42,560 bases of DNA, taken from Oscillospiraceae bacterium (GTDB lineage Bacteria; Bacillota; Clostridia; Oscillospirales; WRJC01). Both the position numbers and the translations under genes were made by a program. Location of the stretch: positions 1 through 42,560 of the forward strand of contig WRMA01000006.1 of NCBI GenBank assembly GCA_009777355.1. The letters are read 5' to 3'. The notes under the pieces were generated by a model. It was not told where the DNA came from. It ran no database searches and saw only the letters and a list, made by a program, of their open reading frames with translations. Shown piece by piece: positions 5,867-9,430 of this stretch; the first letter of the stretch is position 1; every line of letters begins with the position of its first letter.

Positions 5867-6994
5867 TCAGTCTATTCTTTCAACTTTTTTACCGCCTTTT
5901 TTAATAACCACTTTGCCTGTATCAAATTCTTCCTGCGAACATACTTTGAACGTTCCGTAACCGCGGTCTCCTTGAATATGTTTATATCCGGAAAAATCTT
6001 CGGCTCTTTTAAGTTTTACGTCGCTCTCCACTTCCTTAACTCTAATAATTTTTTCTTTAGGTTTAGGCGTAGTTCGTTCATTAATTTTATTATTTACAAC
6101 GTTATTTTTAAGAGGCGTACTTTTTGTCGTTTTATCCGTAACCGGAGAACCTCTGCCGCTGACCGCTTCGGTATTTCCAATAATTGCCGTGAATATGCCA
6201 ATAATTACCAATATAACGATAACTATTATAATAAATATAATAAACGCGATAATATTTTCAATAAACCATAATATCAGCGGCATTACTATAAAAGCCGCGT
6301 TAAGAGCAATCAGCCATTTTTTGAATAAATATCCGATTTCTGATTTTAACATCATAATCAAGCTCGCTATAAAGCAAACTATCGTCACTACAGACACAGA
6401 AATCAACGCTATTATAACTGTCTTCATATTACTCGCTATATTTTGTAAAAAGTGAACATAAATGACCGTTGTAAAATAGTTATTTGATATAAAATCGTAT
6501 ATTTCCGCCGCTTCGTTTAAATTTGTAAGGTCACGGGTTCTTGTAAAAATAAATATGCCCGTTACGAACAGCGCGATTACTATCACAAGGTCTATTAACG
6601 TTAAAACGATAAAAACTTTTTTCTTTTTTCCCGTTGAATTTGCTATACACGAAACATACATAATTATCAAAGCCAACGGGAACATTATGCCGCAAAAACC
6701 GGAAACATAGTTATAGTATAACGGCAATGTTCCCGATGTGAACATCTGTCCGAAATTTTCTTTAGCGGCGTTTATCTGAGTTCCGTAACCGCCGCCGACA
6801 ATAAACAGAATAAAGGCTATTAAAAATACGGCAGAAATAAAAATCGTAATCGAAACTATAATTATTTGAATTATCGTCTTTAACGGCGCGGATTTAAAAT
6901 TTTTTATTCTGTCAGTCAAACCCTCGAACGGCTCGATAATAAAAGAGTAAAAGAAAGATTTCATTATGGTAAATATGCTGATAATTTTATCCAT
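5867..6994 (-). CDS. Hypothetical multi-pass membrane protein (375 aa)
   Basis: I do not recognise the family. The protein has about six or seven hydrophobic helices in residues 35-270, for example TIIQIIIVSITIFISAVF and FIIFIIIVIVILVIIGIFTA. A hydrophilic, proline/lysine-rich linker follows, and then a C-terminal segment (EDFSGYKHIQGDRGYGTFKV, GKVVIKKGGKKVERI) that looks like a short conserved cytoplasmic tail. The ATG has AAGGGA seven bases upstream. It lies 11 bases after the copper-amine-oxidase-N-type gene and is followed by a strong terminator, so the two form an operon and may act at the envelope together. Confidence 0.55.
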   Translation of the reverse strand: MDKIISIFTIMKSFFYSFIIEPFEGLTDRIKNFKSAPLKTIIQIIIVSITIFISAVFLIAFILFIVGGGYGTQINAAKENFGQMFTSGTLPLYYNYVSGFCGIMFPLALIIMYVSCIANSTGKKKKVFIVLTLIDLVIVIALFVTGIFIFTRTRDLTNLNEAAEIYDFISNNYFTTVIYVHFLQNIASNMKTVIIALISVSVVTIVCFIASLIMMLKSEIGYLFKKWLIALNAAFIVMPLILWFIENIIAFIIFIIIVIVILVIIGIFTAIIGNTEAVSGRGSPVTDKTTKSTPLKNNVVNNKINERTTPKPKEKIIRVKEVESDVKLKRAEDFSGYKHIQGDRGYGTFKVCSQEEFDTGKVVIKKGGKKVERID

Positions 6995-7005: not shown

Positions 7006-7809
7006 TTAATAATCCGTCGTAACTATACGCGGATTTTCTAACCCTCTGTATCCATTCGCGCTCTCTAACGCTTTTCTTGCGTCATTTCTGCCAATAGTTG
7101 CAGAAAGACCAGTTCCGCTGCCGCCGCTGCTTGAGGTGAATTCAATTTCGATTTTAAGCGTTATAAATCCGGCAATATCAACTTCCGCCGATATCGGGGT
7201 GACGTTATGGGTCATAATCGGCGAAGTATAAATCAACGTATCGTCTCCGTAAATTTTATAAGTCAGTTCGGGCGAAGAATAATTAGCCGGCGGGTTTAAA
7301 ACGGCTCTGAATTGTGTCGCCGCCATATTTATCGGATAAACAACATGATTCTTATACAAATATCTGCTTCCGGCAATACTGCTGTTTGCATCGATTCCAA
7401 ACCATACAAAACCCACTCCGTCGCTTTGTCTTGACGATACGTTAAAATAGTTACGGTTTCCTACTTCCAGATAAGCCTTGTTATGCAAAGATACTTCTAT
7501 CGCGGGTTTATCAGGACGCTCGCCTATATAAACGGTCTGCGTATCGCCATCCCAGCCTATTTCTTTGCCGAACGCCGCTCCGACTGCGCGTACAGGCAAA
7601 AATGTTGTTCCGTTGTATATAAACGGTTCAACGACGTTGCCGCTTGCGTCTTTCGGGGTTATTAACTCCCCGTCTATGACAATCTTAATATCGTTGTAAT
7701 TTAGATTTGCCGCTACTGTTCTTGCGGCGGCGCTGACAAGACTAATGCTCGAAATGACAATAACCGTGATTAAAACCCCGATGATAATTCCCTGGATACG
7801 CTGTTTCAT
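7006..7809 (-). CDS. Secreted protein with copper-amine-oxidase N-terminal-like (stalk) domain
   Basis: Residues 1-28 form a signal peptide or signal anchor (GIIIGVLITVIVISSISLVSA). Residues 40-100 carry the repeat unit known from many clostridial surface proteins: IKIVIDGELITP, NGTTFLPVRAVGAAFG, WDGDTQTVYIGE. The family name is historical; no amine-oxidase active site is present. The rest (105-267) is beta-rich and unrecognised, with a Ser/Gly linker near the end. AGGAGG sits seven bases before the ATG. A near-perfect promoter about 360 bases upstream (8172-8200) would give it a long, structured leader. It is cotranscribed with the membrane protein at 5867-6994. Confidence 0.75.
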   Translation of the reverse strand: MKQRIQGIIIGVLITVIVISSISLVSAAARTVAANLNYNDIKIVIDGELITPKDASGNVVEPFIYNGTTFLPVRAVGAAFGKEIGWDGDTQTVYIGERPDKPAIEVSLHNKAYLEVGNRNYFNVSSRQSDGVGFVWFGIDANSSIAGSRYLYKNHVVYPINMAATQFRAVLNPPANYSSPELTYKIYGDDTLIYTSPIMTHNVTPISAEVDIAGFITLKIEIEFTSSSGGSGTGLSATIGRNDARKALESANGYRGLENPRIVTTDY

Positions 7810-8010
7810 ATTTTTTTCCTCCTGAAAATTAAAAAAATTTATTTATATATATAAAAAATATATATTTCCCCGAACGTTTTATCTTCGAGGGGCAGACAAA
7901 ATATCCGCTCCCTCAAAGATTTTACGCCGAAAAACAACAAAGCCGAGAATGGCGATTACCATACCCGACCGCAAAACGCGAAAATAACAGATTAAAATAT
8001 ATTATTTCTC

Positions 8011-8039
8011 TTGACTATAACAGAACAATAATATATAAT
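8011..8039 (+). promoter_or_regulatory. Sigma-A promoter for the structured RNA
   Basis: TTGACT (8011-8016), a 17-base spacer and TATAAT (8034-8039). No protein frame begins downstream before 8485. The transcript would start near 8046, run through a folded segment and stop at the terminator at 8245-8286. Confidence 0.75.
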
Positions 8040-8171
8040 AATACTTGCGACGTGCGGAAATTATCCGCTGTGTATGGTGTTTGGATTAAACGTTTCTCAC
8101 CTAATGCAGACCGTGGGGAGATTGGTCCCTCCCTGCGGTTGCTCGCTTGTATTGTTTCTCTTATGTATGCT

Positions 8172-8200
8172 ATTATAACGCTAAAAACAGTTGTTGTCAA
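8172..8200 (-). promoter_or_regulatory. Consensus sigma-A promoter reading toward the surface-protein operon
   Basis: On the minus strand TTGACA (8200-8195), 17 bases, TATAAT (8177-8172), an exact consensus. Transcription would begin near 8165 and pass through the folded element to the gene starting at 7809. A small open frame starting at this -35 box is an artefact. Confidence 0.8.
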
Positions 8201-8244
8201 GTAGTATTTTTAATTTTGCGCGAATAAATATATTTTTATGATAT

Positions 8245-8286
8245 AAGGCTTGTTCAAGTTTCGATTTGAACGGCTTTTTTTCTTTT
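8245..8286 (+). terminator. Rho-independent terminator of the candidate RNA
   Basis: AAGGCTTGTTCAA pairs, with small bulges, to TTTGAACGGCTT, then a run of seven T. It is the first terminator after the promoter at 8011-8039. Confidence 0.65.
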
Positions 8287-8484: not shown

Positions 8485-8993
8485 ATGAAAAATTCAGCTT
8501 ATTTCAGCAATCCAAGAACCCTTGAAGAACTCAAAAAGCAATACAGAGAACTCGCAATGAAGCACCACTCCGACAAAGGCGGCGACACCGAAACTATGAA
8601 AAAATCAATGCAGAATATGACAATTTATTTGCGAAACTCAAAGACGTACATCAAACCAAAGACGGCGAAACCTACACAGCGAAACAGACCACAGCAGAAA
8701 CTCCCGAATATTTCAAGAAAATCATAGACGAATTAATGCGAATGGACGACGTTATAATCGAAATTATCGGCTGTTTTATCTGGCTAACTGGTAATACAAG
8801 GCAGTATAAAGACAAAATAAAATCGTTAAAATTTAACTGGCATAGTAAAAAAATAGCGTGGTATTTGAAGCCCGACGATTACAAAAAACGCAGTCATAAA
8901 GATTATGATTTAGAAGAAATTAGAAATATGTACGGCACATCAGGCGAGGTCAAAAGCACGGGTACAATCAAACTTGACGAAGAAACAGCGTAA
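8485..8993 (+). pseudogene. J-domain protein, split by a -1 frameshift
   Basis: The first frame (8485-8727) starts with a short J domain: NPRTLEELKKQYRELAMKHH, then HSDKGGD. The invariant HPD is HSD here, at residues 28-30. At the six-A run 8599-8604 the sensible reading moves back one base. It then continues as INAEYDNLFAKLKDVHQTKDGE, YTAKQ, TPEYFKKIIDELMRMDD, VIIEIIGCFIWLTGNTR and FNWHSKKIAWYLKPDDY to the stop at 8993. The repaired protein is about 169 residues and resembles J-domain-plus-C-terminal-domain proteins of phages and integrative elements. Either one A was lost or a programmed -1 slip occurs at G-AAA-AAA. A GAGAGG ribosome site precedes the start. Confidence 0.7.
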
Positions 8994-9398: not shown

Positions 9399-9430
9399 AA
9401 TCGGGAGCTTTAAAACTCCCGATTATTTTT
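9399..9430 (+). terminator. Rho-independent terminator
   Basis: AATCGGGAG (9399-9407) pairs with CTCCCGATT (9416-9424), followed by ATTTTTATTT. It closes the two-gene J-domain unit. Confidence 0.85.

Follow-up and report, generated by a model that had tools for sequence, protein, structure and literature searches.

The locus described here is very probably a cis-antisense transcription attenuator, a reading made at the level of sequence, and comparison with its relatives indicates that its RNA belongs to a large family absent from Rfam. It lies in a window of 42,560 nt, this being the whole stretch of DNA that was analysed (Oscillospiraceae bacterium, GCA_009777355.1, contig WRMA01000006.1, positions 1-42,560, forward strand). 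Comparison among family members brings out an RNA on the plus strand, promoters on both strands, a terminator that covaries with hairpin P3 of the RNA, the placement of a gene, and the diversification of two loops; promoters and terminators throughout are predictions from matches to consensus.

In the mechanism that we propose, the minus promoter would start an mRNA with a leader of ~350 nt, in which a region complementary to the plus RNA comes first and an intrinsic terminator second, with the gene beyond. As long as nothing is bound to this leader, the segment that complements the P3 5' arm would pair with the terminator 5' arm and block the terminator, leaving the gene on. From the plus promoter would come a small and compactly folded RNA, in which the 5' arm of P3 copies the 5' arm of the terminator. 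This RNA would recognise the nascent leader via the apical loops of P3 and P4 before pairing with it, and by tying up the P3-complement segment would allow the terminator to form, thus turning the gene off. Because both loops are hypervariable, cross-silencing among the copies of a genome would be avoided. Here, we infer that both strands are transcribed, that recognition is loop-first, and that the plus RNA acts as the off signal, the latter sign being taken from the pairing logic and from plasmid systems. Among the roles guessed for this segment in an earlier note, that of a sense/antisense regulator is now strongly supported, as the plus RNA opposes a leader that carries a matching terminator ahead of a gene.

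Layout of the locus in the window

Two near-perfect promoters facing each other had been noted previously, and these scored 11/12 (plus strand, TTGACT-17-TATAAT, 8011-8039) and 12/12 (minus strand, TTGACA-17-TATAAT, 8172-8200), making them the top two sites within 3.5 kb. Both are kept in relatives, with the former serving as the promoter of the antisense (counter-transcribed) RNA and the latter, which reads leftwards, as that of the mRNA leader. The plus RNA is predicted, from its fold and the covariance model, to span 8046-8163 (~105 nt and a U-rich tail), with its start placed 7 nt past the -10 box at ~8046; the covariance model itself matches 8036-8169. The 5' strand of the closing stem P1 (GCGA, 8047-8050) is partnered by 8143-8146, and the three internal hairpins claimed earlier are all present in the window fold, namely P2 (8054-8068), P3 (8068-8109), and P4 (8109-8140). 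In P3, the 5' arm CTGTGTATGGTG (8068-8079) mimics the 5' arm of the leader terminator, and is followed by an apical loop of 18 nt (8080-8097, specificity loop 1) and the 3' arm (8098-8109), while the apical loop of P4 (~8121-8128) is specificity loop 2. The alignments give the P1 3' strand with the U-rich tail (8143-8163) as the conserved RNA end and presumably an intrinsic terminator. The closing stem had been drawn with 11 bp, of which the GCGA/TCGC part stands, but the outer AATAC (8040-8044) is probably absent from the plus RNA because it follows the -10 box but precedes the probable start (~8046). Likewise, the hairpin proposed as the plus-strand terminator (8246-8285) does fold (z -4.3), although the feature common to the family is instead the U-rich tail directly after the closing stem.

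On the minus strand, the mRNA leader (7810-8165, start predicted) contains a stretch complementary to the entire plus RNA, and the order of leader features is the same in relatives. Its attenuator hairpin (7941-7970) comprises the 5' arm GGTCGGGTATGGT (7970-7958), the loop AATC, and the 3' arm GCCATTCTCGGCT, and is followed by the U-tract TTGTTGTTTTTC (7929-7940) and an AGGAGG ribosome-binding site (7818-7823). The regulated gene (7006-7809, minus strand) encodes an exported protein of 267 aa with Cu_amine_oxidN1 and NPCBM domains, in line with the long leader before a secreted-protein operon that the earlier note had suggested; that note lacked the terminator hairpin of the minus strand (7970-7941), on which the mechanism turns. 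The next gene downstream (5867-6994, minus strand) begins 11 nt after the first and probably forms one operon with it; its product of 375 aa is hydrophobic in the N-terminal half and gave no Pfam family.

Judged against its relatives, the window copy is a divergent family member, departing from the others in its short P1 and its 18-nt P3 loop (5-7 nt in the other copies examined). Moreover, the best fold of its leader lacks the expected antiterminator, although a 7-bp match exists, and this copy may be weakened. A second family copy is found in the same genome (G000:C1:47530-47648). Elsewhere in the window, a DnaJ-like gene (8485-8993) is apparently split by a frameshift near 8600, and a symmetrical hairpin with T-runs on both strands (9399-9424) is probably a bidirectional terminator.

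Fold, strand, and covariation of the predicted antisense RNA

The segment was claimed to be structured, and it does beat dinucleotide shuffles on both strands (-47.5 kcal/mol and z -5.3 for the plus strand; -38.2 kcal/mol and z -4.8 for the minus strand). The RNA forms a tight four-way junction with zero or almost zero unpaired junction nucleotides, where P1 closes the structure and P2, P3, and P4 follow directly. A check for covariation among homologues, as had been suggested, revealed it to be very strong. In an alignment of 37 members, 94.7% of paired cells are standard and 32 of the 36 pairs change on both sides, against 0/500 shuffles on all five measures and at most 60% for slid controls, though as the covariation alignments were fitted to the model these counts lean towards it. 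The larger alignment of 82 members gave the same picture, with 96.1% of cells paired, and RNAalifold, run independently on the first six copies as aligned by MAFFT, agrees with the fold.

As for the strand, 94.7% of cells pair on the plus strand versus 79.2% on the minus strand, and on the plus strand G-U cells (206) far outnumber A-C cells (13), so that the plus strand is the one that folds as RNA. The consensus fold is also larger there, with 37 pairs versus 24 for the minus strand, and the minus-strand fold was accordingly ruled out as the conserved RNA by the pairing and G-U tests together with its smaller consensus. These same data bear on whether the minus-strand leader is itself a riboswitch or a protein-binding leader. 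A long structured leader does precede the gene, and a new riboswitch had been among the earlier guesses, but the conserved pairing fits the strand opposite the mRNA, loop sequence is hypervariable, and no metabolic theme unites the genes downstream, which makes this reading highly improbable and leaves the guess unsupported. Within P3, U-G pairs are kept (UGUGUA with UGCGCA in most copies). As these are mismatches on the leader strand, P3 would be weak in the leader, and its 3' arm free for other pairing.

The two promoters are conserved as well. Among 102 unique copies, the minus-strand promoter reaches at least 9/12 in 93% (20% when shuffled, 15% in a nearby control stretch), with a mean of 10.0/12 and a 17-nt spacer in 81 copies, and the plus promoter reaches at least 9/12 in 84% (11% when shuffled). 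Being dispersed and multi-copy, with TTGAC/GTCAA ends that resemble inverted repeats, the family might be taken for a repeat or mobile DNA element having no RNA function. This we find scarcely credible, since the compensatory changes, the asymmetry between strands, and the conserved promoters are signatures of RNA and transcription, and the end repeats are simply the two -35 boxes.

That no known RNA family fits, as the earlier note had stated, was borne out by Rfam, which at gathering and permissive thresholds gave only chance matches for the window and 24 relatives, apart from tRNA. Thus, no confident match to a known family was obtained, and the 6S models in particular, 6S RNA having been named earlier as an example of a known family, matched neither the window nor the relatives scanned. 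A conserved small protein on either strand was also rejected; by eye, the reading frames differ between copies, and a type I toxin-antitoxin system was therefore set aside.

Predicted leader terminator and antiterminator

On the leader strand, a terminator hairpin is found in 99 of the 106 loci by a relaxed rule and in 87 by a strict one, versus 28-29 on control strands. Past the plus promoter, the hairpin and a U-tract occur in nearly every copy, usually followed by a ribosome-binding site and a gene; such a gene with its ribosome-binding site stands after the terminator in 87 of 99 loci, with 12 lacking a clear leader gene. At the sequence level, the family has both a convergent antisense promoter within the leader and an intrinsic terminator between the antisense region and the gene, as a countertranscript attenuator would. 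The antiterminator pairing is likewise found in the family, though it is weak in the window copy (7 bp).

The hairpin reads CACCGTGTAGG..CCTGCACGGTG in many copies from Oscillospiraceae, its 5' arm repeating the GTGTAGG of the P3 5' arm in the RNA. The leader segment complementary to this P3 arm is CACCTACAC in most relatives and CACCATACAC in the window. In other lineages, the hairpin changes along with P3, such that GTGTATGG occurs with GTGTATGG, GTGCTGAG with GTGTTGAG, GTATGAG with GTATGAG, and CGTAAGGT with CGTAAGGT. When each terminator arm was paired with its own P3, both being delimited automatically (P3 from the RNA alignment, hairpins by an automatic rule), the energy was -242.0 versus -183.4 ± 9.7 kcal/mol (0/50,000 permutations), and a hand-delimited set gave 0/20,000, although the permutations leave shared ancestry within a lineage in place and related genomes are not independent. 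The alignment-based version replaced a first automated test having noisy P3 detection (40/20,000). The likeness of P3 and the terminator arm could come from an old duplication, while their lineage-by-lineage co-change argues against drift alone.

Next, leaders were folded as they would be before the terminator 3' arm exists, and in six of eight cases the 5' arm settled, unconstrained, on the P3 complement; the exceptions were the window copy and L062. In the window, pairing of the P3 5' arm complement with the terminator arm amounts to -9.3 to -9.8 kcal/mol. For complete leaders, the energies with and without the terminator are similar in most cases. As modelled, then, the alternative leader folds are those of an attenuator switch. 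Pairing of the terminator arm with the leader P3 5' arm, rather than the 3' arm, was also considered, and is possible in some copies but does not work where a lineage has a P3 of the GCTGAGT type.

The same antisense pair might instead act on translation or mRNA decay, through cleavage by RNase III or by changing access to the ribosome-binding site, with the hairpin being an ordinary terminator. Many cis-antisense RNAs do work in these ways, and Asr9 of ISPpu9 even activates (PMC8450116). Yet the start codon lies mostly 30-170 nt past the terminator, outside the complementarity to the plus RNA, and the co-change of the terminator arm with P3 is not required of a plain terminator, for which reasons we regard this alternative as unlikely.

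Hypervariable loops

The P3 and P4 loops are hypervariable, each mostly of 6-7 nt, with 72 different P3 loops in 82 copies. Within a genome, the P3 loops are all distinct in G189 (11/11), G002 (8/8), G045 (8/8), G836 (7/7), and G294 (6/6), as are four of the five in G319, where the matching pair differs in P4. In fact, among the nine genomes examined, no two copies in the same genome share both loops. Nine paralogs of G189 (L170, L172, L177, L182, L187, L192, L194-L196) have a mean pairwise difference of 0.035 in stems versus 0.57 in loops, and 12 of 14 loop columns vary versus 8 of 78 elsewhere (P = 2.6e-8). Near-identical copies with differing loops are as expected for orthogonal antisense/target pairs. 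Several of these paralogs precede genes that have an export signal and whose products look repeat-rich.

P4 loops also occur as exact inverses of one another (TTGGCG/CGCCAA, TTGCCG/CGGCAA, and TTGCAG/CTGCAA). For instance, in two related Flavonifractor-type genomes (L081 and L099), the plus promoter and the RNA sequence are common, while the P4 tip is TTGGCG in one and CGCCAA in the other, a difference such as a hairpin flip would give.

It could be supposed that the plus RNA acts in trans as a small RNA, or has a structural role of its own, with the opposed promoter only tuning it by collision, and its strong independent fold, own promoter, and several copies per genome would agree with this. 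Against it, a matched terminator, ribosome-binding site, and gene stand on the opposite strand in most copies, and the differing loops among the copies of one genome suit private targets, such that we judge it very unlikely. For the cis-antisense attenuator, paralogs with near-identical stems and unique loops would constitute a natural library of orthogonal RNA regulators. Such a set makes the avoidance of antisense cross-talk directly testable, and may offer RNA-circuit parts for anaerobes, where tools are few.

Comparison with known antisense systems

To our knowledge, cases of transcription attenuation by antisense RNA have come from a few plasmids and some isolated genes, mainly in plasmid copy-number control. 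ColE1 RNA I is ~100 nt long and has UUGG-type hairpin loops that kiss its target. By general description, the new RNA resembles it in size and loop type, but RNA I acts on a replication primer instead of an attenuator and has no terminator switch.

A closer likeness is with RNAIII of the Inc18 plasmids pIP501 and pAMbeta1 acting on the repR leader, as both systems have a short antisense RNA, convergent promoters, leader attenuation, and two loops. In pIP501, the antisense RNA is 136 nt long, its promoter is convergent with that of the mRNA, and it induces termination in a leader of 329 bp, with two loop pairs and a U-turn loop being important (PMC4981023). Unlike RNAIII, which controls a replication protein, the new family has a four-way-junction fold and is associated with surface-protein and mobile-element genes. 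A search with our second covariance model, R2, in this one direction found no match in pAMbeta1 (bases 1-26000) or pRE25. The pT181 antisense RNA (RF00242) is alike in that it induces attenuation of transcription (PMC5415839). RF00242 matched neither the window nor 24 relative loci, although it matched pT181 as the positive control, and R2 gave no match in pT181. Since the mechanism is as in pT181 and pIP501 but homology was not found, we class the family as countertranscript-attenuator-like and outside the named families. By analogy with these plasmids, the antisense RNA would raise premature termination. RNA-OUT of IS10 and Asr9 of ISPpu9 (PMC8450116) similarly lie over the leader of a mobile-element gene, but act on translation, belong to one element each, and lack a conserved attenuator hairpin.

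Distribution of the family and its downstream genes

A plain DNA search recovered one copy in the genome of the window and five in one genome of the same genus, all with both promoters. A covariance model built from these first six copies (R1) matched 20 of 295 genomes of the order Oscillospirales. Searching with a pattern from the conserved P3 then added 75 loci from named genomes, almost all of them Oscillospiraceae-type Clostridia (Flavonifractor, Oscillibacter, Agathobaculum, Pseudoflavonifractor, Evtepia, and Gemmiger), and because these loci carry P3 by selection its conservation among them is not evidence. R2, made from 82 sequences, was run on three overlapping draws of genomes and matched 46 of 295 at the level of the order, 14 of 341 at that of the class, and 8 of 300 at that of the phylum, although the weakest matches look false. 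Four weak model matches (L156, L157, L163, and L164), which do not have the family layout, were discarded, while eleven matches in other families, picked by the RNA model alone, have the same layout by eye. Altogether, the relatives number over a hundred, from gut and other Clostridia, with up to 11 copies per genome. Antisense attenuation appears to be a recurrent module in Clostridia, among them many gut species. The family is undescribed in the literature that was searched, most subscription papers being outside that search.

Among plasmids, a DNA search using one module gave no match, and among phages the single match was an unannotated faecal record (MT836507.1). This contig, deposited as phage, carries a strong copy (L168, 7401-7519, 101 bits), with an attenuator and a small ORF after it. 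Two copies also lie 1-2 kb apart on one contig in L111 (534-655 and 1582-1699), L137 (1887-2003 and 4013-4129), and L171/L181.

The relatives sit mostly before genes for exported or surface proteins or for mobile elements. First genes after the attenuator, assigned for 59 loci, include Cu_amine_oxidN1 (5), NPCBM (4), HTH_17-type helix-turn-helix (5), TraX (4), SLH (3), TnpB/OrfB (2-3), integrase (2), PemK (2), and LRR_5 (2), and none of the 25 families listed is a replication family. Element copy control, another of the earlier guesses, thus holds for the mechanism, whose closest analogues are plasmid copy-control countertranscripts, but not for the regulated genes, which are not replication genes. 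With its exported Cu_amine_oxidN1/NPCBM product, the window gene (7809-7006) represents the commonest type, so the same combination of element and gene is repeated across several genera. The left neighbours of 17 loci include a recombinase family, an integrase by its sequence (by eye); no conserved right-hand neighbour was found.

More tentatively, and with the balance somewhat against it, the family could be a phylum-wide cassette that moves as a unit of promoter, private antisense RNA, and attenuator and is placed in front of genes for surface proteins and mobile elements, with both loops being actively diversified, partly by flips of the P4 tip. If so, each new copy would gain its own address, and a genome would hold many insulated on/off switches. 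In G319, a single-contig genome of 4.8 Mb, four copies (L152, L173, L178, and L189) each precede a gene for a small protein (93-99 aa), the four proteins being paralogous, and in Agathobaculum relatives (L054, L068, L122, and L124) the element is directly before TnpB/OrfB-like genes.
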